Assembly (NCBI RefSeq): GCF_017599345.1
Contig: NZ_JAGFVL010000040.1
Location: 1 to 64,000 of the forward strand
DNA: 64,000 nt
Source of the DNA: Gracilibacillus suaedae
GTDB lineage: Bacteria > Bacillota > Bacilli > Bacillales > Amphibacillaceae
Reading direction: 5' to 3'
Program-made: the position numbers and the translations under genes
Shown here: positions 33,355 to 58,526 of the stretch, piece by piece
Layout of the letters: every line of letters starts with the position of its first letter
How positions within the stretch are numbered: the stretch's first letter is position 1
The notes under the pieces: model-generated
What the model was told of the DNA's origin: nothing
Seen by the model: only the letters and a program-made list of their open reading frames with translations
Database searches by the model: none

Positions 33355-33422
33355 TCCTTTAATAGATTAATAGAATACATATTGATGTAAGCGCAATCTA
33401 TTTTAGGAACAATAGATGAGAT

Positions 33423-33438
33423 GACTATACCTCTATAC
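33423..33438 (-). promoter_or_regulatory. Repeated GTATAG half-sites before the chitinase
   Basis: Minus strand GTATAGAGGTATAGTC, two directly repeated GTATAG half-sites about 70 bases upstream of the chitinase start. It is a weaker match to the GTATAGAC palindrome. A cre-like sequence (TGCGCTTACA, imperfect) lies between it and the gene near 33385-33398. Confidence 0.3.
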
Positions 33439-34469: not shown

Positions 34470-34470
34470 C

Positions 34471-35361: not shown

Positions 35362-35489
35362 TTTATCCCCCCTTTGTCAAATCTAACTAAACTCTTCTTA
35401 TCTTTACTACTAACGCAAGAGCATTAAAGAGCGTGCAATCACATAACATGTAGCAGCCTCTATATATTTTGAGGTAATTAGCGTATGAT

Positions 35490-36815: not shown

Positions 36816-36851
36816 TTTTCAAGCCTCCTTTTGGAATTAAGGTTATTTTAT

Positions 36852-36865
36852 TGTAAGCGCTTAAA
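36852..36865 (-). promoter_or_regulatory. cre site (CcpA) before the sugar-binding protein gene
   Basis: TGTAAGCGCTTAAA, one mismatch to the cre consensus TGWAANCGNTNWCA, with a perfectly palindromic AAGCGCTT core. Confidence 0.7.
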
Positions 36866-36936
36866 ATTTTTGAGGGGGTAAATCAAAGTGAATAGGTGGA
36901 AAAAAACAAACTTACTTAAAACTGCTTGAACTCTTC

Positions 36937-38448: not shown

Positions 38449-40160
38449 TTTATGAACCTCTTTTCTAACGAAACAACAAATGAAATAGTTGTTCCGTTAT
38501 TTTTCTCACTATTAATTGTCAGCCTTGATGTTGAGCCATAATGCATAGATAATCTTAAATTAACATTACGAAGACCATAACTTGTTCCAACCACTTCTTC
38601 TAATTTTTCATCTATTAAGAACCATTCGTTTAATTCTTTTAGTTTTTCCTTTGATATACCGATTCCATTATCCTGAACATGTATACACAAACTATCCTGC
38701 TCCCAATACCCTGTTATACCGATCTTTCCTTGCTTGTTTTCGTTAGGCAATAAACCATGAATAATGCTATTTTCTATTAAAGGTTGTAATACTAATTTCA
38801 GCATATAATATTCCTCCACTTCTTCTGGAATATTTATGTTCAATTGAAATAGATTAGGATATCGTAATTGTTGGATTCTCACATAGTTATTAAGATGCTC
38901 AAGCTCTTGTTTTATCGTGCAATATTCATCACCTTTATTAAGACTGTATCTTAAAAAATTACTTAAAGCAGAAACCATTCTGGAAATCTTCATATCATGA
39001 TTCACAAGTGCCATCCAGTGAATCGAAGCTAATGTATTGTATAAGAAATGCGGGTTTATTTGCGCTTGTAAGGCTTGTAAATCTATTTCTCTCTTACGTG
39101 CCTCATTTCTTTTTACTTGATCCAGCAAACGATAAATTCGCTTATTCAACTTATTATAGCTATCCAATAATAAGCCAATCTCATCACTTGAATGTAAGGA
39201 CACCAACTTCAAACCAGCTGTTGGATCAGAAGTTTGTATAACTTCTGTTAACTTCGACAAAGGTCCAATCACTTTACGAACGAAAAACAACACTAATGCC
39301 GTGACTAGAAGAATTGCGATAATAATTGCCAACAAGGTTAGTTGTAAAAACTTTCGGTTCTCAGCGGTAAATTTCTTTGTAGGGATGATACTAATTAATG
39401 TCCAATCAACTTCTGGCACTTCACTAGATATAATTGTGTTTTCCATTCCCTCCATATTTGTTGTAAATGGGGTTTGATTTGCTTTTAACCATTGAGATAA
39501 ATCTTTCAGATGAACATCAGAATTGGAACGATTACCAGCAGCTAATAAGATATCATCCTTTAATAAATATGTTGTTCCTCCCCACTCCAAATCTACAGCT
39601 TGTAGATATTTTTCCATAACTTGTTGGTCCAGAAAAATGCTCAAATAGCCAATTAGTTGGTAGTCATCCGTACTTCTTATCGGACGATGCAAAGTAATGA
39701 CATCATTTTTATATCGAAAACTTTTTATAACGTTCTGTTTATGATTCACACTATATTCAGCTTTAGAAGATAAAGTTGAAAGGGTAGAAATATTCCGGTT
39801 TTTATTGAGCGGTTCAATTAAGATATTTGCAATATAGGATTTAGAATAAGTCAAATTAGATAAAAAACCATAGACATTCCACCTTTGTTGCACCGTGTTT
39901 TTTTTTGTTATTAAATATTGTTGCACATCGTCATTTCCAATTAAAAAAACTGACATATTATCAACATCATTCACAATAAATTCAAGAGATTTTTCTAGCT
40001 GGTCCAAAGAAGATTGGGCAGATTCCGTTGCTCGTTGTTTCGCAAGATGGTTTGCTGTGAAATAAGAAATAGTACCTAACAAACTAATTGGAATGAGTAC
40101 AGCTAACAACACAAATACAATTAATTGATGCTGAACCGACTTTTTAAACCATCTATACAA
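38445..40160 (-). CDS. YesM-type sensor histidine kinase
   Basis: About 571 residues from the TTG at 40160, which has GGAGG eight bases upstream; an ATG at 40184 is in frame but has no SD. Two membrane helices flank an extracellular sensor (about 40-280), followed by HAMP, a His-kinase domain with INPHFLYNTLASIHWMAL (phospho-acceptor His in NPHFLYN) and a GHKL ATPase (IQDNGIGISKEKL type). Kinases of this class sense sugars, often through a binding protein. Forms an operon with the YesN-type regulator; divergent from the deacetylase operon. Confidence 0.92.
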   Translation of the reverse strand: MYRWFKKSVQHQLIVFVLLAVLIPISLLGTISYFTANHLAKQRATESAQSSLDQLEKSLEFIVNDVDNMSVFLIGNDDVQQYLITKKNTVQQRWNVYGFLSNLTYSKSYIANILIEPLNKNRNISTLSTLSSKAEYSVNHKQNVIKSFRYKNDVITLHRPIRSTDDYQLIGYLSIFLDQQVMEKYLQAVDLEWGGTTYLLKDDILLAAGNRSNSDVHLKDLSQWLKANQTPFTTNMEGMENTIISSEVPEVDWTLISIIPTKKFTAENRKFLQLTLLAIIIAILLVTALVLFFVRKVIGPLSKLTEVIQTSDPTAGLKLVSLHSSDEIGLLLDSYNKLNKRIYRLLDQVKRNEARKREIDLQALQAQINPHFLYNTLASIHWMALVNHDMKISRMVSALSNFLRYSLNKGDEYCTIKQELEHLNNYVRIQQLRYPNLFQLNINIPEEVEEYYMLKLVLQPLIENSIIHGLLPNENKQGKIGITGYWEQDSLCIHVQDNGIGISKEKLKELNEWFLIDEKLEEVVGTSYGLRNVNLRLSMHYGSTSRLTINSEKNNGTTISFVVSLEKRFIK

Positions 40161-40174
40161 GCTACACACCTCCG

Positions 40175-40190
40175 ATACAGTCATCTATAC
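40175..40190 (-). promoter_or_regulatory. GTATAGAT-type site before the sensor kinase
   Basis: Minus strand GTATAGATGACTGTAT, a near match to the palindrome at 40297. It lies just upstream of the kinase SD if the TTG start is used. Confidence 0.3.
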
Positions 40191-40296
40191 CATTAATAGA
40201 ATTTTAGTTGGATTATATCACCAATCGATTATCAAGTAAATAACTATATCAATTGCGTCATACATGCAGATAATATTTATAAATTTATCGTTTTAT

Positions 40297-40312
40297 GTAT
40301 AGACATCTATAC
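40297..40312 (+). promoter_or_regulatory. Perfect GTATAGA-CA-TCTATAC palindrome before the deacetylase operon
   Basis: Two 7-base half-sites, exactly inverted, with two bases between. It ends 38 bases before the amidohydrolase ATG and overlaps a possible -10 (TATACT, 40308-40313). The form resembles GntR/HutC (NagR-like) operators. Related sites lie before the PTS operon and the LPMO. Confidence 0.6.
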
Positions 40313-40350
40313 TTAAAATTGATATTCTTTTGTCATAAGGGGTGAAATAT

Positions 40351-41451
40351 ATGACATATTCGTATGTATTACAGAATGTGAAATTCGCTACCGGGCGGAA
40401 AGTGGATATGGTGATTAGAAATGGTCGAATTGCTGAAATTACCAAGGCTGGAAAAGGAATAGCGCAGGAAAAATTCAATTATTCTGGCTGTTATGTGTCG
40501 AGCGGGTGGATTGACCTACATGTACATGCAAATAAAGCATTACATCCATACGGAGACGAAATAGATGAAATTGGTGTTAAACAAGGTGTAACAACCATTG
40601 TGGACGCTGGAAGTTGTGGTGCAAACAATGTAAGCGATATCCTTGATGCTGAGAAGGTGCATAAGACAAATTTATATGTGTTTTTAAATATTTCAGCTAT
40701 CGGCCTTACGAGAATGGATGAACTATCTAATCTGAAATGGATAGATGAACAGAAAGTAGTGGATACCATTGCTAAATATCGCGAGAAAATCATTGGACTT
40801 AAAGCTAGAATAAGTAACAGTGTTGTGAAGGACAACGACATTATGCCATTACAAATCGCCAAAAAATTTTCTCGTCTTACCTCCCTACCATTAATGGTAC
40901 ATATTGGTTCAGCTCCACCAGCTATTAACGATATTTTAAGATTACTAGATCGAAAGGATATTGTGACACATTTTCTAAACGGGAAAAGCAATAATTTATT
41001 TGATCAGAATGGTAATCCACTAAAAGAGCTGCAACAGGCAATCCACCGTGGGGTGTTGTTAGATGTGGGCCACGGCAGTGCAAGCTTTTCCTTTCAAGTT
41101 GCGGAGTATGCCAAAAAGCATCAAATCTATCCTTTTTCGATCAGTACTGATATTTACCGGGAGAATCGGCAGAATGGTCCAGTGTACAGCTTAGCTCATG
41201 TAGCCAGTAAATTTCTCTATCTTGGCTACTCTTTGGAACAAGTCATCAATGCCATAACCATATACCCTGCCCAAGCTATAGGAATGCCTGAGTTAGCTAC
41301 CATTGCAGCAGGTGAAAATGCTAACTTGACAATATTTAAGATGGCAAATAAAAAAACGGTTTTAGTTGATTCAGTTGGAGAAGAGAGAATTACCAATCAA
41401 ATGATCGTACCTAAAGGAGTGGTAAAGGATGGCGAACTTATTACATGCTAA
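40351..41451 (+). CDS. Amidohydrolase, putative N-acetylglucosaminate deacetylase
   Basis: 366 residues from the ATG at 40351 (AAGGGGTG six bases upstream; a GTG three codons earlier is less likely). Metal-dependent amidohydrolase barrel with all ligands visible: HxH in WIDLHVHANK, the carbamylated Lys in IIGLKARISN, His in LMVHIGSAPP, His in IVTHFLNGK and Asp in SISTDIYREN. It belongs to the amidohydrolase/deacetylase group found beside DgaE/DgaF genes. I infer it removes acetyl from N-acetyl-D-glucosaminate; the substrate is not proven. First of four overlapping genes. Confidence 0.85.
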   Translation: MTYSYVLQNVKFATGRKVDMVIRNGRIAEITKAGKGIAQEKFNYSGCYVSSGWIDLHVHANKALHPYGDEIDEIGVKQGVTTIVDAGSCGANNVSDILDAEKVHKTNLYVFLNISAIGLTRMDELSNLKWIDEQKVVDTIAKYREKIIGLKARISNSVVKDNDIMPLQIAKKFSRLTSLPLMVHIGSAPPAINDILRLLDRKDIVTHFLNGKSNNLFDQNGNPLKELQQAIHRGVLLDVGHGSASFSFQVAEYAKKHQIYPFSISTDIYRENRQNGPVYSLAHVASKFLYLGYSLEQVINAITIYPAQAIGMPELATIAAGENANLTIFKMANKKTVLVDSVGEERITNQMIVPKGVVKDGELITC

Positions 41452-42535
41452 ATACGGGCTAAAGCGAGTGATTAATGCAAGTGGCAGAATGAGTATTTTA
41501 GGGGTTTCGGCACCAAATGACAGTGTTATGGACGCAATGAAAATAGGAGCAAAAAACTATATCGAAATAGCTGATTTAGTAGATAAAGCAGGGAGCTATA
41601 TAGCGGATAAATTAGACAGTGAAGATGCGGTCGTCGTTAATTCTGCTTCGAGTGGAATCGCGATGTCAATTGCAGCTCTGGTAACAAAGGGAAATAAGTT
41701 TGATAGTTTAAAACTACACCAAAAAGACATTCCAGAAAATGAAGTGATCTTATTTAAAGGACACAATGTTCAATACGGAGCTCCAATAGAAACCATGATT
41801 CATTTAGGAGGTGGAAGACTAGTAGAAGCCGGCTATGCCAATGAAGGTAGGAAGGAACATTTAGAAGAAACAATAAGCGACAATACGTGTGCTATTTTAT
41901 ATGTCCAATCCCATCATGCCGTTCAAAAAAACATGATAACGGTGGAGGATGCATGGGAAGTTGCCAAAAAATATGGCATTCCCTTTATTATTGATGCTGC
42001 CGCTGAAGAAGATCTGCAAAAATATATATCCTGTTCCGATCTTGTTATCTTCAGTGGTTCGAAAGCTATTGAAGGACCAACCTCGGGCATTGTAGCAGGA
42101 AAAAAACAATACATTGATTGGGTAAAAGTCCAATTATATGGAATCGGCAGAAGTATGAAAGTAGGAAAAGAAGCTATTTTCGGGTTACTTCAGGCAATTG
42201 ATAATTTCTTTAACAAAGAAGATCATAGTCGAGAAGAACGAGACAGCCTTCAAGCCTTACATGTATTAAATGAATTGGATGGTGTTACCGTTGATATTGT
42301 CCAAGATGAAGCGGGAAGAGAGATTTATCGAGGGAGAATCAAGGTTAATCCAATCCAAGCAAGCATGAGTGCAGAAGAATTAGCTACTGCTTTAAGAATC
42401 GGAAAGATCGCTATCTACACTAGAGATTATGGAGTAAAGCAAGGCTTTTTCGATATTGATTCCCGCCCATTACAGGGAAATGATATCGAGATTATTGTTC
42501 AAAGAATCCAGGAGGTTTTAGGAGGTAGTTCATAA
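41429..42535 (+). CDS. dgaE: DgaE-like PLP-dependent glucosaminate ammonia-lyase
   Basis: 368 residues, SelA-like fold type I PLP enzyme. The cofactor Lys is in VIFSGSKAIEGPTSG (near residue 212), the Asp binding the PLP ring is in FIIDAAAEEDL, and the Ser/Ala loop is NSASSGIAMSIAAL. DgaE in Salmonella dehydrates and deaminates D-glucosaminate-6-phosphate to 2-keto-3-deoxygluconate-6-phosphate. Because this cluster has a kinase but no Dga-type PTS, I infer that it acts on unphosphorylated glucosaminate to give KDG. It overlaps the amidohydrolase by 23 bases and the next gene by one. Confidence 0.87.
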   Translation: MANLLHAKYGLKRVINASGRMSILGVSAPNDSVMDAMKIGAKNYIEIADLVDKAGSYIADKLDSEDAVVVNSASSGIAMSIAALVTKGNKFDSLKLHQKDIPENEVILFKGHNVQYGAPIETMIHLGGGRLVEAGYANEGRKEHLEETISDNTCAILYVQSHHAVQKNMITVEDAWEVAKKYGIPFIIDAAAEEDLQKYISCSDLVIFSGSKAIEGPTSGIVAGKKQYIDWVKVQLYGIGRSMKVGKEAIFGLLQAIDNFFNKEDHSREERDSLQALHVLNELDGVTVDIVQDEAGREIYRGRIKVNPIQASMSAEELATALRIGKIAIYTRDYGVKQGFFDIDSRPLQGNDIEIIVQRIQEVLGGSS

Positions 42536-43287
42536 TGGCTTCTATTTTTAATCACTTTTATCAAAATCGGGTTGCTTTAAATGTATTAGCCAACAGTATC
42601 GATAACGCGAAAGACATCTATCAAGCTGCTGAAAAACATGTACTAGTTGGTGTTTTATCTAAGGATTACCGAACAACAGATGAAGCTATACTGGCTATGA
42701 AAGCATATGGTGCAGCAATAGAGGATGCAGTCTCGATCGGACTCGGAGCAGGAGATAGTAGGCAAGCACCAGTAGTTGCTGAGATAGCAAAACAATATCC
42801 GGGCAAGCATATAAATCAAGTATTTCCATATGTCGGACAAACGAAAGCAAATACGGATAAGCAAGATTGTTGGATTAATAGCTTAGTAACACCTACTGGG
42901 AAGATTGGTTACGTCAATATTTCAACAGGTCCTATTAGTGAACATGCAGAAAAAGCGATTGTTCCTGTCAAATCTGCTATTTCATTAGTTCGTGATATGG
43001 GAGGAAAGGCACTTAAATATTTTCCGATGCAAGGTTTAGCGACAATAGATGAGTACAAAGCCGTCGCCAAAGCGTGTGGTGAAGAAAACTTTGCACTAGA
43101 GCCTACTGGCAGTATAGATAAAACAAACTTCACTGAAATATTGGATATTGCCTTATCAGCCAATGTACCGCAGATCATTCCCCATGTTTATTCATCGATT
43201 ATTGATAAAGAAACTGGGAAGACCAATGTTGATGATGTAACCTTTTTACTACAACAAGTGAAAAAGCTGGTTGATCAATATGACTAA
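42535..43287 (+). CDS. dgaF: DgaF-like 2-keto-3-deoxy-6-phosphogluconate aldolase
   Basis: 250 residues, beta/alpha-barrel KDGP aldolase of the DgaF family (larger than the classical Eda of about 210). Visible segments are VLVGVLSKDYRTTDEAILAMKAYG, INQVFPYVGQTKAN, LVTPTGKIGYVNISTGP and ALKYFPMQGL. It would split KDG-6-phosphate to pyruvate and glyceraldehyde-3-phosphate. Start ATG in the sequence TAATG, sharing a base with the dgaE stop; SD AGGAGG about 20 bases upstream, so coupling is likely. Confidence 0.87.
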   Translation: MASIFNHFYQNRVALNVLANSIDNAKDIYQAAEKHVLVGVLSKDYRTTDEAILAMKAYGAAIEDAVSIGLGAGDSRQAPVVAEIAKQYPGKHINQVFPYVGQTKANTDKQDCWINSLVTPTGKIGYVNISTGPISEHAEKAIVPVKSAISLVRDMGGKALKYFPMQGLATIDEYKAVAKACGEENFALEPTGSIDKTNFTEILDIALSANVPQIIPHVYSSIIDKETGKTNVDDVTFLLQQVKKLVDQYD

Positions 43288-44296
43288 GAAAATCGCAGCC
43301 TTTGGTGAAGTAATGATGCGTATGCAAGTACCTGAGAATCTACTGCTGACACAAGCCAATTCTTTACAATATTCGTTTTCAGGTACAGGGGTAAATATTA
43401 CTGGCAGTATCGAAAAATTAGGATATAAAAGTGCACTCATTTCAACACTACCAGCTAATCCAATTGGTGATGCTGCTATTTCTCATTTACAAAAGCTCGG
43501 CATTTCGACCGATTATATCGCCCGATCAGGTAATTATATCGGAATGTATTTTTTAGAGAATGGAATTGGTGCTCGGCCAAGTCGTGTAACTTACTCCAAT
43601 CGTATGGAAAGTAGCTTTAATACCGCAAGTAAATCCAACTATTCATTTCATAAAATCGCTGAAGAGATCGACTTATTACATGTATGTGGGATAACACTAG
43701 CTATGAATGAAAATGTTCGACAGCAATTGATACTGTTAGCTAATTTAGTCAAGGAGCAGGGTGGTATTGTTCTCTTTGATTGCAATTACCGTCCTTCCCT
43801 ATGGGGAGAAAACGGCCATATAAAAGCAAAACCATACTATGAACAACTACTGAACATTGCTGATATAGTGATGATGAATGAGAAAGATGCACTTTACACA
43901 TTAGAATACCACTGTCAGCATCAAGAACGTGAAAAACAGTTAGAGGAACTGATTCCAAAAGTGGCAGAGGAGTACAACATAGCTATACTAGCAGGTACCC
44001 ATCGAACGATTCATCATGATGACTCCCATTCTATTAAAGGCTATTTATATCAGTTAGGGAGATTTCATTATGCAAAGAAGGAACAATTTCGTGTTTTGGA
44101 CCGTATAGGAGCTGGCGATGCTTTTGCAACAGGCATTATTCATGGAAAGCTCCAAGACTATCAACCGCAACAAACGATTCAGTTTGCGACCGCTTCATGT
44201 ATGCTAGCACATACCATTGTAGGTGACACACCACTATCGACCAAGCAAGAGATTTTACAAGCAAGCAACCACCAAATCCGTGATGTAATTAGGTGA
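43280..44296 (+). CDS. kdgK: PfkB-family 2-keto-3-deoxygluconate kinase
   Basis: 338 residues from the ATG at 43280, overlapping dgaF by eight bases; an upstream TTG is less likely. Ribokinase fold with the anion-hole and base motif DRIGAGDAFATGII near the C-terminus and N-terminal FSGTGVNITGSIEKLG. It phosphorylates a sugar acid, most likely KDG, giving the substrate of the aldolase encoded before it. Last gene of the operon, followed by a long hairpin. KdgK is assigned from context; other PfkB substrates are possible. Confidence 0.87.
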   Translation: MTKKIAAFGEVMMRMQVPENLLLTQANSLQYSFSGTGVNITGSIEKLGYKSALISTLPANPIGDAAISHLQKLGISTDYIARSGNYIGMYFLENGIGARPSRVTYSNRMESSFNTASKSNYSFHKIAEEIDLLHVCGITLAMNENVRQQLILLANLVKEQGGIVLFDCNYRPSLWGENGHIKAKPYYEQLLNIADIVMMNEKDALYTLEYHCQHQEREKQLEELIPKVAEEYNIAILAGTHRTIHHDDSHSIKGYLYQLGRFHYAKKEQFRVLDRIGAGDAFATGIIHGKLQDYQPQQTIQFATASCMLAHTIVGDTPLSTKQEILQASNHQIRDVIR

Positions 44297-44300
44297 TAAC

Positions 44301-44337
44301 AACTGTCGGCAACAGCAATGAAATGTTGCCGACAGTT
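44301..44337 (+). terminator. Hairpin after the deacetylase-kinase operon
   Basis: Perfect 14-bp stem AACTGTCGGCAACA/TGTTGCCGACAGTT with a 9-base loop, five bases after the kinase stop. No U-tract follows, so it may stabilise the mRNA end as much as terminate. Confidence 0.65.
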
Positions 44338-44444
44338 GCAGTTGGTGAAGTTGATGTAATTGATGATATCTTCTGCTTCTTTCTTCAATTCAATCACAAA
44401 AGATATAGTTTGTTAATGAACTAAGGATTTTAGGTAATAAGAAA

Positions 44445-44467
44445 AACCGGGAAAACCCACCCGGTCC
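44445..44467 (+). terminator. Short GC hairpin before repeat copy C
   Basis: ACCGGG/CCCGGT with loop AAAACCCA followed by CCTGTT. It corresponds in position and sequence to the hairpin before repeat copy A at 15496. Confidence 0.45.
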
Positions 44468-44472
44468 TGTTC

Positions 44473-44660
44473 AAAGTAGTTATTTTGACATGATTAATAG
44501 TCGTAACAACCGCTTCGGCTTGCCCACTTCGCTTTCCAGGGGGCGTGTCTTCAGCTAACTTTGCAAAGAAGATCGCTTTGCAAAGTGGATCTTCAGATCA
44601 CGCTGATCCCCCAGGAGTTGAAGTGGGCGGCCTTCGCTATTATCAGGCTCTACAACGCTA
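44473..44660 (+). repeat. Structured intergenic repeat, copy C
   Basis: Perfect outer helix GCCCACTTC (44522-44530)/GAAGTGGGC (44620-44628). Middle helix GGGGG (44539-44543)/CCCCC (44608-44612). Inner helix ACTTTGCAAAG (44558-44568)/CTTTGCAAAGT (44576-44586). The upstream flank AAAGTAGTTATTTTGACAT is shared with copy D; the downstream GCTCTACAAC is shared with copy A. Confidence 0.88.
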
Positions 44661-44754
44661 GCATGAAGTAACACAGCTGCTTTTATACTCACGGATAGCG
44701 GTCCATTGTAAAAAAAGTCAACCTATTCCTTCTGACAAGAATTGTTGCACCTTC

Positions 44755-44922
44755 TCATAGCGGAGACTAATTACGGAGACTCCTGTGGGAATAGCACGAG
44801 CCGAAAATCCACTTTGCAAAGTGTTTTTCTTTGCAAAGTTAGTTGAGGCTGTGCCCACGGAAAGCGAAGTAATTAGTCGAAGCGTTGGCAAACACACATA
44901 AAATATGTCAAAATAACTACTT
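44755..44922 (-). repeat. Structured intergenic repeat, copy D (inverted)
   Basis: Same element in the opposite direction. Outer helix GACTAATTAC (44765-44774)/GTAATTAGTC (44869-44878), middle GTGGG (44785-44789)/CCCAC (44854-44858), inner ACTTTGCAAAG (44811-44821)/CTTTGCAAAGT (44829-44839). With copy C it makes a 450-base inverted pair. The rest of the 44297-45099 gap (44930-45068) has a stretch AAAAGCGCAGAGCGCCCGC that may be a fragment of another Bacillaceae repeat. Confidence 0.88.
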
Positions 44923-45064
44923 CGTTAAACACGGTCATTACGCTGATTATATACTTTCTTACCTTTTAAGAAAAGCGCAGAGCGCCCGCTTAGCTTCCTT
45001 GTGTTACTTAAAGTGGGGATCTTACAGACGTTTAGCACTGTGACAAATACGGATTCAAAGATAA

Positions 45065-45110
45065 TATTAAAAAGCATAATCGACCAATGATCTGGCCGCT
45101 TATGCTTTTT
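45065..45110 (-). terminator. Terminator of the LplABC-type operon
   Basis: Perfect 11-bp stem AAAAAGCATAA/TTATGCTTTTT (45069-45079, 45100-45110) overlapping the end of the YesL gene. The U-tract on the minus strand is within and just beyond the 3' arm. Confidence 0.85.
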
Positions 45111-45828
45111 GGGGGTTCCATTGTTTTTTACTTTCATTCTTTTCCTTTATTCTTTTTGCTCTTAGGTAGATGAAATAATAACCTAGAAAACAGATGATTG
45201 CAGGCAAAATCCCACCATACAACACAAAAAATATGGGGTGTAGCCAGTATAAAATATAGAGACAAACACCTGAAACACCAATTACAGAAATGGTATAATG
45301 TGGAAAACCAATACTCATTATGATAGATTTTTTGATGGATGCAATAAATGTAAGATGATAATGTACACTATCCGCAAAGAAATAACTCGTAAATGCTAAT
45401 AAAAACATAGTAAGAGCGAGGTAAATATAAGACAATCCGGAACCTAACTCAATCCCTGATAATTGATAATTATAAATCCAAACCAACCAAATAACAGTAA
45501 TCGTTATCCCACCTACAAGACTGCGAGCATAATTTTGTTTATAAGTCTTCCAGAAATAAGATAGTAATCTATCATCCTTCTTATATAACACCCCTCTTCT
45601 TACTACCGCAAACATTGCATTAGTGGCAGGAAAGGAAATAAAGGGGAGTAAGAGTATGATAATGATAAGAAGCAAATACAGTTTATCCATACTGTTTACT
45701 GTTAATGTAGCCAGTACCATATACACGATTGGAAAATTAAAAATGACCCAAATCATATTTACCAGTAGTAATTTCATCATCCAATACGATATTTGATAAA
45801 ACCTACCGATCATTCCCATCGATTCCAT
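45100..45828 (-). CDS. YesL-family (DUF624) membrane protein
   Basis: 242 residues with five to six membrane helices and N-terminal MGMIGRFYQISYWMMKLLLVNMIWVIF typical of DUF624. YesL proteins are encoded with LplABC/YtcQ-type sugar ABC transporters in Bacillus; their task is not known. Last gene of this operon, 29 bases after the binding-protein gene. Start ATG with GGGGAG nine bases upstream. Confidence 0.85.
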   Translation of the reverse strand: MESMGMIGRFYQISYWMMKLLLVNMIWVIFNFPIVYMVLATLTVNSMDKLYLLLIIIILLLPFISFPATNAMFAVVRRGVLYKKDDRLLSYFWKTYKQNYARSLVGGITITVIWLVWIYNYQLSGIELGSGLSYIYLALTMFLLAFTSYFFADSVHYHLTFIASIKKSIIMSIGFPHYTISVIGVSGVCLYILYWLHPIFFVLYGGILPAIICFLGYYFIYLRAKRIKEKNESKKQWNPQKA

Positions 45829-45857
45829 GATGATTTACTCCCCTTCCATTCAATCAT

Positions 45858-47510
45858 TTATTCCCCAGCCATAATCGCTAGATTCTCTTGCCATTTTTCA
45901 GTTTGAAATTCAAGGAGTTGTTGATAACCTACATCTCGAGCCGCTGTTTCAGCTTCTGCCATAATCTGCTCGACTTCTTCATCGCTTTGTGCATAAACTG
46001 CTTTGGCACGAGCCTCCTCAAAAATTTCTCCTACACGTTGCTGGATAATCCCCTCCTCACTTTCGGGGATCGGACTTATATTTAAATATTGTGTTGCGTC
46101 ATATTGTGTATCCCAAGTAATCGTATTTTGCCAATGTGTTGTCCAGTTACGATGTTCTTCAGGTAAGGTTTCTTCAAATTTAGCTTTCGCTGTATCTAAG
46201 AAATTTGAATTCCCATTCCATTGAAAATTAGCTGTATCTTCTTCCACTTTCGCTAAACCTTCAGGGTCTTCATAGTATTTTTCCGTAAATTGCGGGAATC
46301 CTTCTTCATCAAATCCATCCCAATATTCCCCCTCAGGACCAAATATGAGTGAAGCCTGCCCTTCAGGTCCTGTTAACCAATCTAAGAAAGCAAAAACTTT
46401 CTCTGGATCTTCTGCGCCTTTGGTAATAACGCTCACATTCCATCCCATCATGTTATAAGAACCTGGATAGATTTCATTTGGATCTAATCCTTTTTTATGA
46501 ATCGGATGAATCATGAAATATCCTCCATCAGAATCTTCTTCCAACAGATTATAATGACCTGTTCTGGCATGGTCTGTCGGACTTGCAGAAGCGAAAACGG
46601 CTATGTTACCTGATGTGACTTTCTCAATAACCATATCCTGATCTTGCGTCAATGCATCCTGTGTAATTAATCCATCACGGAACAATTTACTAACATATTG
46701 TAAAGATTCGATATAATTCTCATCCGTAAAAATGGACGTTAACTGATCTCCGCTCTGGACCGCTACATTGTTAATGTTAGCCGGAGATTCTCCCTCGGCA
46801 AAAGCAGAATATAACACATTAATCCCTTGACCATCTATACCTGTTTCAAACGGAATAACATTTGGATAATTCTCTTTTACTAATTGTAAGTATTCATATA
46901 GATCTTCTGTAGTCTCTAATGGAGGAGATCCTAGATCTTCGTAAATTCCTTTATTTATGACATACCCTGCATTACCAAATGGGCTGGAATTATACCAGTT
47001 TGGAAATTGGTATAACTTGCCGTCATCTGAACGAAGCATATTAATACCTTCTTCACCAAACCAGTCTCTTAAATTCGTATATTTATCAAGATAAGGATCC
47101 AATGGTACAAGTGCTCCACCTTCTCGTAATCTTTCGACAGATGCTCCACGATCTGTCCAAATAAAATCAGGCAGCTCATCACCTGCAATCATCGTGGTTA
47201 ATTTTTGTTCAGCATTCCCGCCGCCGTCAATCGCAGTTATATCTACTTTTTTATTCTCTTTGATCCAAGCAGTTGCTACATCATCCCCCCATCCAGGCAT
47301 GGTGTACCAGTCATAATTGCCAAACATTGAAATTTCCAGTGGCTCCTCGCCTAATACAAATAAGTCATCCTCTTCACCTGCTTCGTCTGATTCGGAATCA
47401 TTTGTCTCTTCTTCTACACTTTCAGTGGTGTCACTATCAGAACATCCAATAACAATTCCAACAGTTAATAATACAAGTAACAGATACCAATGAAATCTCC
47501 TTTTCCTCAT
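45858..47510 (-). CDS. Large sugar-binding lipoprotein (LplA/YtcQ type)
   Basis: About 550 residues from the ATG at 47510 (AAAGGGG nine bases upstream). The longer frame reaches 47573 but the signal peptide starts properly here: MRKRRF, hydrophobic core, lipobox IVIGC. A very acidic linker (DSDTTESVEEETNDSESDE) precedes a binding fold rich in Trp and Tyr (AMFGNYDWYTMPGWGD region). Proteins of this size serve importers of complex oligosaccharides. Operon order is permease, permease, binding protein, YesL. Substrate unknown; the divergent LPMO suggests chitin fragments. Confidence 0.88.
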   Translation of the reverse strand: MRKRRFHWYLLLVLLTVGIVIGCSDSDTTESVEEETNDSESDEAGEEDDLFVLGEEPLEISMFGNYDWYTMPGWGDDVATAWIKENKKVDITAIDGGGNAEQKLTTMIAGDELPDFIWTDRGASVERLREGGALVPLDPYLDKYTNLRDWFGEEGINMLRSDDGKLYQFPNWYNSSPFGNAGYVINKGIYEDLGSPPLETTEDLYEYLQLVKENYPNVIPFETGIDGQGINVLYSAFAEGESPANINNVAVQSGDQLTSIFTDENYIESLQYVSKLFRDGLITQDALTQDQDMVIEKVTSGNIAVFASASPTDHARTGHYNLLEEDSDGGYFMIHPIHKKGLDPNEIYPGSYNMMGWNVSVITKGAEDPEKVFAFLDWLTGPEGQASLIFGPEGEYWDGFDEEGFPQFTEKYYEDPEGLAKVEEDTANFQWNGNSNFLDTAKAKFEETLPEEHRNWTTHWQNTITWDTQYDATQYLNISPIPESEEGIIQQRVGEIFEEARAKAVYAQSDEEVEQIMAEAETAARDVGYQQLLEFQTEKWQENLAIMAGE

Positions 47511-47572
47511 ACCCTTCAACCCCTTTTTAAAATTTTTATTTAAAGCACTAGCCTTAAACCAATTTCTTTGCA

Positions 47573-48469
47573 CTACTCTTTCAATGATCCGATTAGTACC
47601 CCTTTCACAAAGTGTTTTTGAACAAACGGATAAACTAATATAATCGGAATTGTCGCTACCATCATCGTGGCCATTGATAAAGATTTCCCGGTAACTTTCG
47701 CTACATTGGACATGTGTGCTAAAGCTCCCGCATCGAGCTGACTCATTTGTGATGTTACAGTATTGGAATTCAATACTTGTCGAAGTAAAGTCTGGATTGG
47801 TATCAAGTTTTCTGAAGAAATATAAATACTAGGAAAAAACCAATCATTCCAATGGAATACAGCGGTAAACAAGGATAACGTTGCGATCACAGGTCCTGAC
47901 AAAGGTAGCACAATCCGAAAGAAAATTTGCCAATTCCCACATCCATCTATCTTGGCTGATTCCTCCAGCCCTTTAGGCAGTTGTTGAAAGAAGGTACGGA
48001 AAATAATCATATTCCAAACTAACACAAGTGTTGGGATAATCATCGCCCAAAAAGAATCCATCAATCCTATCCCCCTAACAAGTAGAAAAGTGGGAATTAG
48101 ACCACCACTAAAAAACATCGTTAACAAACAGAAAATCATAAAAAATTTTCTACCAATCAGTTCTTTTTTGGACAAGCCATACGCCAGAAGTGCGGTGACA
48201 AGAACAGATAGAAAAGTACCTATTACCGTCCTTAACACAGAGATCAAAAAAGCATTCAGTAATCTTTTATCCTGAAAGACGATTTGATAATTTTCCAATG
48301 TGAAATCTCGTGGCCAAAAAGTTACACCGCCTAGCATGGTGTCCTGCCCACTATTAAAGGAAATCACTAACGAATTCCAAAATGGATAGAACGTTACAAA
48401 GCCTAATAAAATTAGGAAAATATATATGCTGACTATCATGATCCGGTCACCAAATGTCGGTTTTATCAT
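47573..48469 (-). CDS. ABC transporter permease (LplC/YtcP type)
   Basis: 298 residues from the ATG at 48469 (AGAGGTG eight bases upstream; an ATG at 48490 is in frame but would include the SD). Six membrane helices. EAA motif LEESAKIDGCGNWQIFFRIVLPLSG and the family's C-terminal QKHFVKGVLIGSLKE. Inner-membrane half of the importer for the LplA-type binding protein. Confidence 0.92.
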   Translation of the reverse strand: MIKPTFGDRIMIVSIYIFLILLGFVTFYPFWNSLVISFNSGQDTMLGGVTFWPRDFTLENYQIVFQDKRLLNAFLISVLRTVIGTFLSVLVTALLAYGLSKKELIGRKFFMIFCLLTMFFSGGLIPTFLLVRGIGLMDSFWAMIIPTLVLVWNMIIFRTFFQQLPKGLEESAKIDGCGNWQIFFRIVLPLSGPVIATLSLFTAVFHWNDWFFPSIYISSENLIPIQTLLRQVLNSNTVTSQMSQLDAGALAHMSNVAKVTGKSLSMATMMVATIPIILVYPFVQKHFVKGVLIGSLKE

Positions 48470-48493
48470 TTGTTCTTCACCTCTTCTCATTCT

Positions 48494-49453
48494 TTACCAA
48501 AGACTGTTGCCATTCCTACGAGCAATATAATTTGCTAAAGTTAACAAACCTACACTTATGATCGCTTTAAATAATCCAATTGCCGTCGCATAGGAATACC
48601 TTCCGCTTCCGATCCCTACCCGGTAAACATAGGTATCAATGACATCGGAAACAGACCGTAATATTGCCGAATCTCCTAAAATTAATAAATCTTCGAAACC
48701 AGCATTTAATAAATTTCCTACTTCTAAAATAAAGAAGATAATAATGATAGGCATAATAGAGGGTATTGTTATTAAAAAGATTTGCTTGAATCGACTAGCA
48801 CCATCTAACGCTGCAGCTTCATAAAGTTGAGGATCCACTCCTGCAATTGCTGCAATATAAACTATCGAAGCAAAACCAATCGATTTCCATAGATTTGTAG
48901 AAACGATAATCGTCCAAAAGTATTCAGGGATTGCCAGAAAATTAATCGATTCATCAATCAACCCCGTTTTTTCTAATGCAATATTTAAACTGCCATTGTC
49001 TGTCGATAATATCGACATCGCAAATCCTGCAACAATAACCCAAGACAAAAAATGTGGCAAATAAGTGATAGTTTGCACTGTTCTTTTGAAGGCCATGTTT
49101 TTTACTTCATTTAACATAAGAGCAAGCATGATTGGTGCAGGAAAACATATCAAAATCTTCAATCCACTGATAACAAAGGTATTACGCAATATTTCCAGAA
49201 ACCTTGGATCAGAAAAAAACATTTTAAAATGCTCTAGTCCAACCCATTCACTCCCCATCATTCCCTCAAATATGTCATAATTCTGAAAAGCCATTAACAC
49301 ACCATACATCGGTATATAGTTAAAAATAAAAATAAAGATCAGACCAGGTATTACCATCATTTGCAAGTCAAACTGACCAAAGTATCTCTTGAAAAAGCTT
49401 TTCTTCTTATTAACCTTTATACCTTTTGTGATAACCTCCGATTTCACACCCAT
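48494..49453 (-). CDS. ABC transporter permease (LplB/YteP type)
   Basis: 319 residues with a basic N-terminal tail, six helices and EAA motif LYEAAALDGASRFKQIFLITIPSI. MYGVLMAFQNYDIFEGMMGSEWVGLEHF is characteristic of LplB/YteP proteins. First gene of the operon. SD AAGGAGG lies unusually close (three bases) to the annotated ATG; a GTG two codons later has a better distance. A promoter and a leader terminator lie upstream. Confidence 0.92.
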   Translation of the reverse strand: MGVKSEVITKGIKVNKKKSFFKRYFGQFDLQMMVIPGLIFIFIFNYIPMYGVLMAFQNYDIFEGMMGSEWVGLEHFKMFFSDPRFLEILRNTFVISGLKILICFPAPIMLALMLNEVKNMAFKRTVQTITYLPHFLSWVIVAGFAMSILSTDNGSLNIALEKTGLIDESINFLAIPEYFWTIIVSTNLWKSIGFASIVYIAAIAGVDPQLYEAAALDGASRFKQIFLITIPSIMPIIIIFFILEVGNLLNAGFEDLLILGDSAILRSVSDVIDTYVYRVGIGSGRYSYATAIGLFKAIISVGLLTLANYIARRNGNSLW

Positions 49454-49534
49454 TTGCCTCCTTATCCCATTTTTTTAAATCAAGAACGACTGTACTTACA
49501 CACTCCTGGCAAAGTCATCGCATTTCTTACACAT

Positions 49535-49585
49535 AAAAAAAAGAGAACATAAACTCCCAGACATTTCTAAGATGATTATGTTCTC
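49535..49585 (-). terminator. Leader terminator of the LplABC-type operon
   Basis: Arms GAGAACATAA (49543-49552) and TTATGTTCTC (49576-49585) followed on the minus strand by eight U residues. It sits about 20 bases after the predicted start of transcription and 80 bases before the first gene, so the operon can be expressed only if this hairpin is bypassed. Confidence 0.8.
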
Positions 49586-49602
49586 GTTGATAAAATTTAT
49601 TG

Positions 49603-49640
49603 GATAAGATAACTATACCAATTTACAGTGTGGAATGCAA
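49603..49640 (-). promoter_or_regulatory. Promoter and possible operator of the LplABC-type operon
   Basis: Minus strand TTGCAT (-35, 49635-49640), 17-base spacer, TATAGT (-10, 49612-49617). The -10 is part of GTATAGTTATCTTATC (49603-49618), a weak match to the GTATAGAC palindrome. Confidence 0.6.
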
Positions 49641-49728
49641 TCCTTTTTTGTGTTTTAGTTAAGAACGGATAAATTTATTGATTAGTTTTTCTTTTATAGG
49701 ATTTTTTTACTAAATTTCTTCGTTACTA

Positions 49729-49757
49729 TTGAATTAAACACTTGCATCCTCTATGAT
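49729..49757 (+). promoter_or_regulatory. Promoter of the LPMO gene
   Basis: TTGAAT (-35), 17 bases, TATGAT (-10), giving a leader of about 120 bases. The leader contains a second SD-like AAGGAGGTGG at 49791-49800 with no start codon in reach. Confidence 0.55.
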
Positions 49758-49848
49758 ATAAAATGTAAGGGTTTTCTTTTCATGGTAGAAAAAGGAGGTG
49801 GAATCCGAAATTATTGAGGCTCTTACCCAATATTTTTCGCTTATATAG

Positions 49849-49864
49849 GTATAGACTTCTAGTA
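49849..49864 (+). promoter_or_regulatory. GTATAGAC-type operator candidate before the LPMO
   Basis: GTATAGACTTCTAGTA, sharing GTATAGAC-WW-CTA with the sites at 31121 and 40297. It ends 22 bases before the ATG, directly before a TATAAT and the SD. Confidence 0.45.
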
Positions 49865-49886
49865 TTATAATCAAGGAGGAGAAAAG

Positions 49887-50843
49887 ATGAGTATAAAAAT
49901 TAGTAATCTTAGTTTTCTAAAAGTCGCATTGATGGTTGTTGGATTATTTGGTGTGTCTTTAGCTTTCACCACGATGGTTTCTGCTCATGGATATGTTAGT
50001 AATCCCGAAAGTAGGGCTCTACTATGTGCAGATGGGGTTAATGTTGATTGTGGGGCTGTAGTTTATGAACCACAGAGCCTTGAGGGACCTGGTAACTTTC
50101 CTGAAGCAGGGGTAGCAGATGGACAGATTGCCAGTGCTGGAGGCGTCTTTCCTAAATTAGACGAACAATCTGAAAATCGTTGGGCGAAAGTTCCGATGTC
50201 AAGTGGCGCCTTTACCTTTGAATGGACATTAACTGCTGCACATGCATCATACAATTGGGATTACTATATTACAAAAGAAGGATGGGATCCTAATTCTCCG
50301 TTAGAACGATCAGATTTTGAATTATTCTGTACACATAATGATAATGGACAACGCCCTGATTTCACGACAACACATGATTGTGAAATTCCTCAAAGGTCAG
50401 GATATCATGTTATACTTGCGTATTGGGAAGTAGCTGATACAGCAAATGGTTTTTATCAAGTAATTGATGCTAACTTTGACGGGGAATTTGAGCCTGGAGA
50501 TCCTGGGGAACCAGGTGAACCTGATCCGGAAAAACCTGGTGACACACCGGAATGGGATCCAAATGCTGTTTATTTAAATGGTGATCAAGTTTCTTATAAT
50601 GGAAACGTTTATCAAGCAAAGTGGTGGACACAAGGAGATACTCCCGGTGAATCAGACGTATGGGAATTGGTAAGCGGGGACGCACCTGAAACGCCTGAAC
50701 AGCCTGAAGTTCCAGAATGGTCCAGTACCACTGCATATAATGGTGGAGATCGTGTTTCATATCAAGGTGTCATATATGAAGCACTCTGGTGGACACAAGG
50801 TGAAACACCTAACACAAGTGACGTATGGATTGTCGTGAGTTGA
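49887..50843 (+). CDS. AA10 lytic polysaccharide monooxygenase with two CBM5 modules
   Basis: 318 residues. A Sec signal peptide is cut after VSA, exposing His34, the first copper ligand (HGYVSNPESRALLC); the second is His119 in LTAAHASYNW. The catalytic domain spans 34-200, then an acidic Pro/Gly/Glu linker and two CBM5/12 chitin-binding modules (about 222-263 and 274-317) with paired Trp in YQAKWWTQGDTP and YEALWWTQGETP. AA10 enzymes of this form cleave crystalline chitin oxidatively, mostly at C1, leaving aldonic acid ends. SD AAGGAGGAG. Monocistronic with its own terminator. Confidence 0.95.
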   Translation: MSIKISNLSFLKVALMVVGLFGVSLAFTTMVSAHGYVSNPESRALLCADGVNVDCGAVVYEPQSLEGPGNFPEAGVADGQIASAGGVFPKLDEQSENRWAKVPMSSGAFTFEWTLTAAHASYNWDYYITKEGWDPNSPLERSDFELFCTHNDNGQRPDFTTTHDCEIPQRSGYHVILAYWEVADTANGFYQVIDANFDGEFEPGDPGEPGEPDPEKPGDTPEWDPNAVYLNGDQVSYNGNVYQAKWWTQGDTPGESDVWELVSGDAPETPEQPEVPEWSSTTAYNGGDRVSYQGVIYEALWWTQGETPNTSDVWIVVS

Positions 50844-50961: not shown

Positions 50962-52887
50962 TTACTTTTCTCTTATCCAAACTAACATTTCATTCTCACC
51001 TCTATTACTCCATGCGTAGTAAGGAATTGCTATTAATTCTTTTTCTATAAAGGATGGTAGAGCTGTTGTATAGAGTTGGTCTTGAATTTTTTCAGTATCT
51101 GTTTGGAAGCCTGTTCCTTTTACAATCATCAGACCATTTAAGAGGGAAGCATTAAAGTCTACTGAAAATGTTTGATTCGAATCTAGTTGGATATCTTGTA
51201 AATTTGCTCCATTATCAATTTCTTCCAGGCAATAGACGATTGGCCCACGTTGAAGTGCCACTTTACCTGCATTTTCACGTACAGCTGGATGTGATCTAAC
51301 GGTTTCTACTGGCATATCTAGAAGTAATGTTACTTCATCATCTGGATGCCATTCTTTGTTAACTTTTGCATATCCTTTCACTTTTTCTACTGGATATTCC
51401 GTGCCATTAATGAACAGTTGGCTTTTTTTACACCAACTTGGAATTCTTAATGCCAATGTAAAGGATGTTGGCTTTTTCAAATCTAAACGAAAGTTAATAT
51501 TTCCATCCCAAGGATAATTAGATTGTTGTTCTACGTTAACAAGCTCACCATCCATTATAAATTCAGTTTCACCACTAATATATAAATGGACATACAGTTC
51601 TTTCTGATTAGCAGAATAAATATATTGACCGAGGGAAGCTAATAATCTAGCAATGTTCGGTGGACAGCAAGCACAACCGAACCAAGGTTGTCTTGTTGTT
51701 TTAACTGAATTCATATCATGTCTACAGTTTGTTGTGTGTGGCCAAACTTCTAATGGATTCACATAGAAATAGCTTTTACCATCTAATGCAATACCACTTA
51801 ACGCCCCATTATATAATACTCGTTCTAACACATCCGTATACTTAGAATCGGCCGCTATTTGCACCATACGTTGAGCCCACATGATTAGTGCAACCGAAGC
51901 ACATGTTTCGGTATATGCTCTATCATTTGGTAAATCATAATCGACCGTAAATCTTTCTTGATGTGCAGATGAACCAATCCCACCAGTTACATACATTCTC
52001 TTATTAACGGTATTCTCCCAAAGGGCGTGACAAACCTCCAATAGTTCTTCGTCTTCTAATTCGCTTGCCAAATCGACCATACCACTATATAAATAGGTGG
52101 CACGAACCGAATGCCCTTCAGCTGTTCGTTGCTCTCTAATTGGTAAATGAGCTTGATAATAACTATAATCATTTTCAGGCTTTTCGCCACGATTTTTAGT
52201 TTCTTCATCAAAGAAATGATGTGGAGTTCTTCTGCCTCTTTCCTCGATAAAAAACTTACACAAATTGATATACGCCTCTTTGCCAGTTATCCTATATAAT
52301 TTCATCAAAGCAAGCTCAATTTCAGGATGTCCTGGATATCCAGCAAGCTTTCCATCATCTTCTCCAATTACCTCTGTAATATGCTCAATTGCTTTATTGA
52401 CGATCTGTATAATTTGGTCTTTTCCTGTTGCTTCATAATAGGCTACTGCCGCCTCAATTAAATGACCAATACAATACAATTCATGATCATCTTTTAAATT
52501 CGTCCATTTTTTATCTGGATGATTAACACTAAAATAGGTGTTGAGGTAACCATTTTCTTCTTGTGCTTCTTCAATTAATTGGATAACTTCATCCATAATC
52601 TCCTCCCATTTGTTACTTTTCTCCATATGAAGGGTGTATGCTACTGTTTCCATCCATTTGTACAAATCACTATCTTGAAAAACCATGCCATAATGCTTAC
52701 CATTTGATCTACCAGCTGCTATTTCAAAATTTTTGACCGTTCGGCTCGGTTCAGCTCCAGGTATCCGGTCATTTAAAGCATTCCACTGATATGGAATGAT
52801 GGAATCTTTTACAAGGTTTTGCCATGGACTCCAAAATGCATCCTTAATCTTCACTTGCGAAAGCTGAATTGGTGTCATCTTATTCAT
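50962..52887 (-). CDS. GH127 glycoside hydrolase, beta-L-arabinofuranosidase family
   Basis: 641 residues. The (alpha/alpha)6 barrel carries the metal/nucleophile set of GH127: Glu in AYTETCASVALI and the Cys pair in WFGCACCPPNIARLLASLG. The beta-sandwich C-terminus follows (RIPSWCKKSQLFING). GH127 enzymes remove beta-L-arabinofuranose from plant glycans and glycoproteins, by a Cys nucleophile. No signal peptide, so it acts on imported sugars. Last gene of the LacI-controlled operon; the substrate cannot be fixed because the family is broader than its tested members. Confidence 0.88.
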   Translation of the reverse strand: MNKMTPIQLSQVKIKDAFWSPWQNLVKDSIIPYQWNALNDRIPGAEPSRTVKNFEIAAGRSNGKHYGMVFQDSDLYKWMETVAYTLHMEKSNKWEEIMDEVIQLIEEAQEENGYLNTYFSVNHPDKKWTNLKDDHELYCIGHLIEAAVAYYEATGKDQIIQIVNKAIEHITEVIGEDDGKLAGYPGHPEIELALMKLYRITGKEAYINLCKFFIEERGRRTPHHFFDEETKNRGEKPENDYSYYQAHLPIREQRTAEGHSVRATYLYSGMVDLASELEDEELLEVCHALWENTVNKRMYVTGGIGSSAHQERFTVDYDLPNDRAYTETCASVALIMWAQRMVQIAADSKYTDVLERVLYNGALSGIALDGKSYFYVNPLEVWPHTTNCRHDMNSVKTTRQPWFGCACCPPNIARLLASLGQYIYSANQKELYVHLYISGETEFIMDGELVNVEQQSNYPWDGNINFRLDLKKPTSFTLALRIPSWCKKSQLFINGTEYPVEKVKGYAKVNKEWHPDDEVTLLLDMPVETVRSHPAVRENAGKVALQRGPIVYCLEEIDNGANLQDIQLDSNQTFSVDFNASLLNGLMIVKGTGFQTDTEKIQDQLYTTALPSFIEKELIAIPYYAWSNRGENEMLVWIREK

Positions 52888-52909
52888 CGTTTATTCCTCC
52901 TCGTGTATG

Positions 52910-55300: not shown

Positions 55301-55335
55301 ATATTATCCCCCAACGTACATTTATATTGTTGTCT

Positions 55336-56154: not shown

Positions 56155-56169
56155 CAGGAGTACCTCCTA

Positions 56170-57042: not shown

Positions 57043-57058
57043 GATTTACACTCCTTAT

Positions 57059-57089
57059 AACAGGTACCGAGTGACACCCGATACCTGTT
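57059..57089 (-). terminator. Stem-loop between binding protein and permease genes
   Basis: AACAGGTA/TACCTGTT with further pairing inside and no U-tract. Such loops usually protect the upstream mRNA, so that the binding protein is made in excess over the permeases. Confidence 0.6.
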
Positions 57090-57096
57090 ATTCTTA

Positions 57097-58521: not shown

Positions 58522-58526
58522 TCTAA

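Follow-up and report, generated by a model that had tools for sequence, protein, structure and literature searches.

The window analyzed here is a 64,000-nucleotide stretch of DNA from the halophilic, Gram-positive bacterium Gracilibacillus suaedae (contig NZ_JAGFVL010000040.1, positions 1 to 64,000), part of a 4.65-Mb Gracilibacillus genome in 64 contigs. Its central feature is a plus-strand operon of four genes, each of which overlaps its successor, lying 5.6 kb from the gene for a secreted lytic polysaccharide monooxygenase (LPMO) of family AA10. The first gene (40351 to 41451 from its ATG; the open reading frame [ORF] is open from a GTG at 40342) encodes an amidohydrolase of the EF_0837 family, a proposed N-acetylglucosaminate deacetylase. 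It is followed by genes for a DgaE-like, pyridoxal phosphate-dependent ammonia-lyase (41429 to 42535), whose proposed product is 2-keto-3-deoxygluconate (KDG) or its 6-phosphate (KDPG), for a DgaF-type KDPG aldolase (42535 to 43287), and for a PfkB-family kinase (43280 to 44296 from its ATG, open from a TTG at 43271), which is the proposed KDG kinase. A terminator-like hairpin, a 15-bp perfect inverted repeat with a 9-nt loop, lies 3' of the operon (44300 to 44338, plus strand). The LPMO gene (49887 to 50843, plus strand) is the one AA10 gene found in a search of the genome and specifies a PF03067 domain and two CBM5/12 modules, with a histidine, as judged by eye, directly after the signal peptide. 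An earlier, sequence-only reading had described this LPMO and this operon, and the ORFs, their order, and their families are borne out by our ORF calls and profile searches.

In an NCBIfam profile search the amidohydrolase scores 470.7 bits against TIGR03583/EF_0837, above the curated cut-off of 432.15, and it is the one over-cut-off protein in the genome. Its closest solved structures are 2ics and 8wzy, and its similarity to D-aminoacylases is short and local. Residues H60, H62, K154, H187, H210, and D270 (numbered from the GTG) are invariant across 61 aligned amidohydrolases, an alignment that excluded proteins outside 340 to 440 amino acids or with stops; from family knowledge we take these residues to be metal ligands, and it is in this sense that the enzyme is metal complete, as the first description had it. 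The lyase scores 519.3 bits against TIGR01437 (cut-off, 385.3) and falls below the model for true DgaE, NF047797 (396.9 bits, cut-off 600), so that "DgaE-like" is the fitting label. In Salmonella numbering it retains H162, H163, K213, R301, R332, and R346 and has lysine at R226; its closest named record, with 98% identity, is from G. lacisalsi, a species that has this locus as well. The aldolase exceeds the DgaF cut-off of NF047796 (364.4 bits, cut-off 300) and is the single PF07071 aldolase in the genome. The kinase (PF00294) is closest among solved structures to 3ktn and then to a KDG kinase entry, 2afb; it is below all NCBIfam cut-offs displayed and resembles the kinase half of the KDPG-aldolase/kinase fusion NF041633, with a score under the cut-off. 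No mannose-family phosphotransferase system (PTS) was recognized among the genes from 33.6 to 50.8 kb, the rest of the genome not having been searched; the absence of a Dga PTS that had been read from the sequence thus stands for the surroundings of the operon, and the kinase set against it is present.

Further chitin and N-acetylglucosamine (GlcNAc) genes of the window lie on both sides of the operon, on the minus strand. A GlcNAc PTS operon encodes IIBC (28106 to 29572; above the TIGR01998 cut-off), a PRD/CAT antiterminator (29601 to 30458), and IIA (30458 to 30949), and next to it is a GH18 chitinase gene (31147 to 33354) whose product has a wall-sorting-like C terminus (LPDTA, membrane stretch, basic end). 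An ABC transporter operon begins with two permease genes identified by profile match (48494 to 49453 and 47573 to 48490), followed by genes for a lipoprotein-like solute-binding protein (45858 to 47573) with distant likeness to AlgQ2 and 5gub/5xs8-type proteins, and for a DUF624 membrane protein (45100 to 45828) of a kind that recurs with such ABC operons. The counterpart of the binding protein in genome G041 is like 5g5y, AlgQ1, and AlgQ2. At the end of the window is an operon of the order binding protein-ABC-ABC-GH20C-lactonase-GNAT, which starts beyond the window, as does the full ORF of its permease (63238 to 63975). Within the window it encodes a GH20C β-N-acetylhexosaminidase (61287 to 63209), a second lactonase of family PF10282 (60227 to 61318), divergent from the housekeeping 6-phosphogluconolactonase-like copy, and a GNAT-family protein (59769 to 60254); by eye, neither the GH20C protein nor the lactonase has a visible signal peptide. 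Farther along the contig, divergent from this operon, are nagA, nagB, a GntR regulator gene, and a murQ-like gene. The GntR-UTRA gene (contig positions 68890 to 69612, 4.9 kb past the window) is presumed by context to be nagR; its relatives are below all NCBIfam cut-offs. The murQ-like gene (locus L295, 6630 to 7529), a name that we have presumed from its sequence, links amino-sugar with muramic acid recycling. The GlcNAc PTS, wall-bound chitinase, and hexosaminidase of the sequence-only reading are therefore all present, though in the hexosaminidase, the GH20C protein just described, no signal peptide is visible. What had been overlooked are the lactonase, the ABC transporter as a member of the set, and the common operator.

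Co-occurrence with LPMO genes and a second lactonase

We counted the amidohydrolase, above its curated cut-off, in 159 genomes of the GTDB family to which the window belongs. It is present in 33 of these genomes and an AA10 LPMO in 23, with both in 21. This amounts to 21/23 genomes with an LPMO and 12/136 genomes without one (Fisher P = 9e-16). The association persists within genera (Cochran-Mantel-Haenszel z = 5.7), and the observed overlap was reached in 0 of 200,000 within-genus permutations; whether the operon accompanies AA10 genes across genomes had been left as a question by the sequence-only reading, and for the amidohydrolase the answer is that it does. A sugar-acid control, the glucuronate isomerase UxaC (77/159 genomes), shows no association with the LPMO (13/23 versus 64/136). 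In a sample of 398 genomes of the class, few of which overlap the family sample, an LPMO is found in 49 genomes, the amidohydrolase family (E ≤ 1e-40) in 61, and both in 33, which is 33/49 versus 28/349 when kinship is ignored; at the curated cut-off the values are 16/49 and 17/349. Of the 21 family genomes that hold both, 8 have the LPMO and amidohydrolase genes no more than 25 kb apart.

The second lactonase follows the same distribution. PF10282 proteins of the family fall into two groups, the housekeeping copy at about 388 to 468 bits and the second copy at about 206 to 311 bits. The second copy occurs in 29/159 genomes (as fragments in G025, and as two separate matches each in G093 and G145), among them 21/23 with an LPMO and 8/136 without, and 27 of the 29 also have the amidohydrolase. 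Its distance from the amidohydrolase is 25 kb at most in 22/29, the housekeeping lactonase being that close in 0/29 examined, and by coordinates it adjoins GH20C in 26/29. GH20C itself is above its cut-off in 40/159 genomes, including 21/23 with an LPMO. In a comparison that left out second copies of 300 amino acids or less, 27 second lactonases group in a single clade that excludes nine housekeeping copies, and both kinds have the GPRH, H163, E227, NRG, and WPR positions in common. Based on this separate clade and the retained positions, the second copy is likely an active yet different lactonase. In one of the 26 genomes where the two adjoin, a genome without an LPMO (G118, C1:3074688-3075246), GH20C is interrupted by stops beside the second lactonase, as if the set were decaying.

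A shared, presumptive NagR-type operator

The dre sites of Bacillus subtilis were reportedly treated by Bertram in 2011. The promoter of the four-gene operon contains a perfect palindrome, GTATAGA-CA-TCTATAC (40297 to 40312), 38 bp before the operon ATG, and two overlapping dre-like 16-mers (40293 to 40308 and 40301 to 40316). Other dre-like sites are located 22 bp before the LPMO start codon (49849 to 49864), upstream of the GlcNAc PTS operon (31121 to 31136), and upstream of the chitinase gene (33419 to 33438). The window has eight sites with ≤3 mismatches, these last three promoters included, against 3.33 expected, and eight were reached in 1 of 100 shuffles.

Over the full 4.65-Mb genome the core GTATAGACNNCTA matches at three places, which precede the GlcNAc PTS, the amidohydrolase operon, and the LPMO. 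We read the surroundings of all 31 of its matches in 17 Gracilibacillus genomes. In the seven genomes with an LPMO, 19/19 matches either precede chitin or GlcNAc genes or coincide with their called start (LPMO, 7; amidohydrolase operon, 5; PTS, 4; chitinase, 1; nagA, 1; binding-protein-GH20C-lactonase operon, 1), so that the core precedes the LPMO in 7/7 and the amidohydrolase operon in 5/7; at loci L254 and L269 the called ORF start precedes the operator site. The ten genomes without an LPMO have 12 matches, five at nagA or nagB and seven without assignment. In G031, where 278 kb separate the amidohydrolase operon from the LPMO, both retain the core. Across family loci the amidohydrolase site (≤2 mismatches) is found in 6/40; it is a feature of Gracilibacillus and of genome G143, not of the whole family. 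Past the window (L295), sites with two mismatches precede both the nagA-side genes and the start of the binding-protein-GH20C-lactonase operon.

An independent matrix, made from 19 listed NagR sites of Bacillus thuringiensis and scored over a 73-kb region, ranks the operon promoter first (and also eighth), the chitinase second, the LPMO 17th, the PTS 22nd, and the GH20C operon 23rd. In B. thuringiensis, a single GntR/HutC repressor with dre sites governs nag genes, chitinases, and lpmo; nagP, nagA, chiA, chiB, and lpmo have such sites and increased expression in a nagR deletion, and electrophoretic mobility shift assays cover nagP, lpmo, chiA, and nagA among others (PMC6141813; the papers cited by PMC number were available in part, and statements drawn from them refer to those parts). 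The difference is that here the amidohydrolase operon and the GH20C-lactonase operon also carry dre-like sites, and neither is in the B. thuringiensis list as available.

Gene order in other genomes and comparison with known systems

In ten genomes from several genera (G041, G060, G070, G073, G104, G106, G145, G054, G110, and G093), the amidohydrolase is preceded, directly or at a distance of a few genes, by an ABC operon that comprises a binding protein, two permeases, and DUF624. The kinase in these genomes is followed by a GntR gene, GH20C and the lactonase are usually nearby, and GH3 is present in four; in G041, G060, and G145 the LPMO is within the amidohydrolase cluster. In the window and in G028, G036, and G143, a related ABC operon is placed between the four-gene operon and the LPMO, and in G072, G076, G077, G084, and G085 there is a contiguous GH20C-lactonase-ABC-amidohydrolase-GntR run with the four-gene operon at another place. 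These contexts fall in two clades of the amidohydrolase tree (FastTree), and the association has therefore probably arisen, or been retained, on more than one occasion.

Among the 80 best-matching named loci, GntR is present in 62, a GntP gluconate-type permease in 23, an LPMO in 2, both of them Gracilibacillus, and the lactonase in 1. Loci with GntP include those of Staphylococcus nepalensis, S. xylosus, S. equorum, and Mammaliicoccus sciuri, and outside the lineage of the window the operon is mostly accompanied by other uptake systems. At L079, L095, and L167 to L170 there is a PTS version without the kinase, in which DUF4310-4312 proteins and a PRD regulator replace the kinase and the ABC transporter. 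A kinase with nonphosphorylating uptake and none with a PTS is what the proposed chemistry predicts, and L151 (G538), with PTS and kinase both nearby, fits this pattern less simply. At L168, in an LPMO-containing genome of another family, the PTS-type amidohydrolase-lyase-aldolase operon is beside a GH18-like gene. L082 and L094 have operons without the DgaF-type aldolase. G145 has no PF07071 match at all in the family search, and another KDPG aldolase may replace the DgaF-type one there. Family genomes also contain a second, more distant KDPG-aldolase-like group (PF07071, about 190 to 212 bits).

The other neighbors of the operon in the window are of several kinds. A YesM/YesN-like two-component system with an ABC transporter (33591 to 40184) is divergent from the operon, has a promoter region in common with it, and adjoins it in several genomes; we considered these genes as candidate pathway members and left them out. 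The gene-free stretch 3' of the operon contains a ~450-bp element (44474 to 44922) resembling a miniature inverted-repeat transposable element; its inverted repeats are long but imperfect, with 88% complementarity between the 25-nt ends and 76% between the 85-nt inner arms. Positions 50962 to 59561 hold a GH127 β-L-arabinofuranosidase-like gene and a gene for a 796-amino-acid protein that matches only DUF5695, and that weakly, both of which G. lacisalsi (L064) has as well; an ABC transporter and a LacI regulator are also encoded in this stretch. At 24013 to 25712 are a small ORF and a sodium:solute symporter that could take up acetate or a sugar acid, and the symporter is also near chitin genes in G023 and G033.

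The Dga system was reportedly treated by Miller in 2013, and the cog3964 enzymes are said to have been covered by Ornelas, also in 2013. The EF_0837/EF_0839 families (TIGR03583, TIGR01437, and TIGR03581) are the amidohydrolase, lyase, and aldolase families found here, and NCBIfam names no substrate for the amidohydrolase. The lyase and aldolase are homologous to those of the Salmonella Dga system for D-glucosaminate (DgaABCD PTS, DgaE, DgaF; PMC9529869). Compared with that system, the operon has an added amidohydrolase and kinase and no mannose-family PTS beside it, and its lyase is under the true-DgaE cut-off while its aldolase is over the DgaF cut-off.

A close functional parallel is the oxidative chitin route known as ong, found in Pseudoalteromonas prydzensis and other Gammaproteobacteria, complete sets of which, in the available part of the survey, are present only in Gammaproteobacteria and one Betaproteobacterium (PMC9537276). 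The two are alike in logic, as far as genes tell here, with an LPMO, import of oxidized oligomers, GH20, deacetylation, deamination, a PfkB kinase (here a proposed KDG kinase), and KDPG. However, the ong deacetylase is the D-aminoacylase-like OngB (subtype V, Cys/His/His metal site, catalytic Asp) and its lyase is the D-amino-acid-deaminase-like OngC, whereas here the corresponding proteins are the EF_0837 amidohydrolase, with the six residues given above, and a SelA-like protein of the DgaE family (TIGR01437); OngB- and OngC-type enzymes are not in the operon, and the rest of the genome was not searched for them. ABC import, GH20C without a visible signal peptide, a dedicated aldolase, and a lactonase in the set are further differences, as are a NagR-type site in place of the MurR/RpiR regulator OngR and the lack of a RidA gene in the four-gene operon. 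Because the deacetylase and lyase, the two defining enzymes of ong (PMC12017989), belong to other families here, the operon, judging by its proteins, is not a member of the ong pathway, although it would work like it. In Aeromonas, a check for ong genes gave no OngB or OngC in the available part of the report (PMC11653859). In Natrarchaeobius, DgaE-like genes in chitinase clusters were read as a phosphorylated route (PMC12343721), which by analogy is an independent hint that this lyase family accompanies chitin. No Firmicute pathway for N-acetylglucosaminate (GlcNAc1A) was among the matches listed in the open-access literature searched. The operon and its associated set appear to constitute a Gram-positive N-acetylglucosaminate route, analogous to ong and made largely of unrelated enzymes.

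A proposed branch for oxidized chitin ends, and its alternatives

We consider it probable that the genes described here form a chitin locus of NagR type, one branch of which is dedicated to oxidized chain ends. C1 oxidation of chitin by AA10 enzymes leaves lactone or N-acetylglucosaminate ends, the lactone being formed first. Given this chemistry, the secreted LPMO and wall-bound chitinase would produce chitin oligomers ending in N-acetylglucosamino-lactone or GlcNAc1A, which the lipoprotein-dependent ABC transporter would import. In the cytoplasm GH20C would remove GlcNAc, and the second lactonase would open lactone ends. The amidohydrolase would then deacetylate N-acetylglucosaminate, the lyase would deaminate glucosaminate to KDG, the kinase, presumably acting after the lyase, would convert KDG to KDPG, and the aldolase would split KDPG into pyruvate and glyceraldehyde-3-phosphate. 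GlcNAc would be routed via the GlcNAc PTS, NagA, and NagB, with NagR binding to the operator. The sequence-only reading had likewise proposed that the operon catabolizes N-acetylglucosaminate from LPMO-oxidized chitin. This central idea has strong comparative support in the co-occurrence with the LPMO, the linkage, the co-occurring lactonase, and the common NagR-type operator, but the kinase may act before or after the lyase, and the operon may not be dedicated exclusively to chitin.

Either order may hold because three arginines of the lyase, R301, R332, and R346, placed near the 6-phosphate in the Salmonella enzyme by manual docking (PMC9529869), are identical in 48/48 kinase-type and 5/5 PTS-type lyases (lyases of 340 amino acids or less were excluded). 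With the same substrate, PfkB might first phosphorylate N-acetylglucosaminate or glucosaminate, and the amidohydrolase, the lyase, or both would act on 6-phosphates in a Salmonella Dga-like manner. We find this conceivable but somewhat doubtful, since docking is not a crystal complex, the closest named relatives of the PfkB protein are KDG kinases (2afb), with the resemblance to NF041633 pointing the same way, and the KdgK of the ong pathway works on KDG and little on GlcNAc1A (PMC9537276). There are also type-specific residues (H97 versus P and Y334 versus H in the lyase, and R124 and R276 solely in kinase-type amidohydrolases); the comparison of kinase-type and PTS-type enzymes gave these differences and left the order of steps undecided. 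As for chitin, 12/33 family genomes with the amidohydrolase lack an LPMO, as do the 28 such genomes of the class sample, and together with the GntP permease at 23 of the 80 best named loci and the PTS version at others this suggests that the dedication may not be exclusive. The operon could serve general scavenging of an N-acetylated amino-sugar acid that is not mainly LPMO derived, coming instead from the environment or from GlcNAc oxidized by other enzymes, and merely be co-regulated with chitin genes here. This is unlikely, however, in view of the LPMO association within genera and, kinship ignored, across the class, and of the operator common to operon and LPMO. A sugar dehydrogenase acting with the lactonase was considered as a source of the acid, but no such gene recurs among annotated neighbors, many genes there being without annotation. 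Peptidoglycan recycling, in place of chitin, is a highly improbable source of the amide substrate: the murQ-like gene, a MupG gene near the operon in G106 and G038, and GH3 in four genomes would accord with it, but MupG is found in those two genomes only, and the LPMO, GH18, and GH20C associations favor chitin.

Several further observations weigh against the proposed chitin branch. Genome G141 has two LPMOs without the amidohydrolase or second lactonase, and the LPMO-containing G142 has only a PTS-type amidohydrolase relative (345 bits). In 13 of the 21 genomes with both genes the LPMO is more than 25 kb from the amidohydrolase or on a separate contig, and the operons of G145 and G093 are without DgaF. 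We took the operator core from the window itself; its total in the seven genomes equals that of a reversed-pattern control (19 versus 20), so that its weight as evidence is in placement only, and the amidohydrolase genes of G026 and G033 lack the exact core. Neither GH20C nor the binding-protein genes have a site (≤3 mismatches) directly upstream, the operon start in L295 having one. Shuffled sequence equals the top matrix score (13.75 ± 1.45 versus 13.49), and the NagR target list of B. thuringiensis, in the part available, has no amidohydrolase or Dga gene (PMC6141813). Perfect palindromes are said never to occur among natural Bacillus dre sites (PMC4333415, in part). The palindrome at the amidohydrolase promoter is centered 4 bp off the dre frame, and the site has a second, shifted dyad. 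It is possible that this operator consists of two overlapping dre sites or that another GntR-type repressor binds there.

On the broader scale, there is a reasonable chance that an oxidative chitin pathway peculiar to Bacilli exists, separate from that of Gammaproteobacteria and centered on a portable N-acetylglucosaminate module that consists of the EF_0837 amidohydrolase, the DgaE-like lyase, and DgaF. We lean, to a similar degree, toward its being combined with three kinds of uptake: an ABC transporter accompanied by GH20C, the lactonase, and the kinase; a gluconate-type permease together with the kinase; or a PTS, in which case there is no kinase. If so, the oxidative chitin route would gain a new enzyme role, that of a chitin-lactone lactonase, and a substrate would be at hand for TIGR03583, a conserved amidohydrolase family that has no known one. 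The products of LPMOs need to be consumed, yet the route demonstrated so far is gammaproteobacterial; a Gram-positive route made from other enzymes would explain the fate of oxidized chitin in Bacilli and add a lactonase step.

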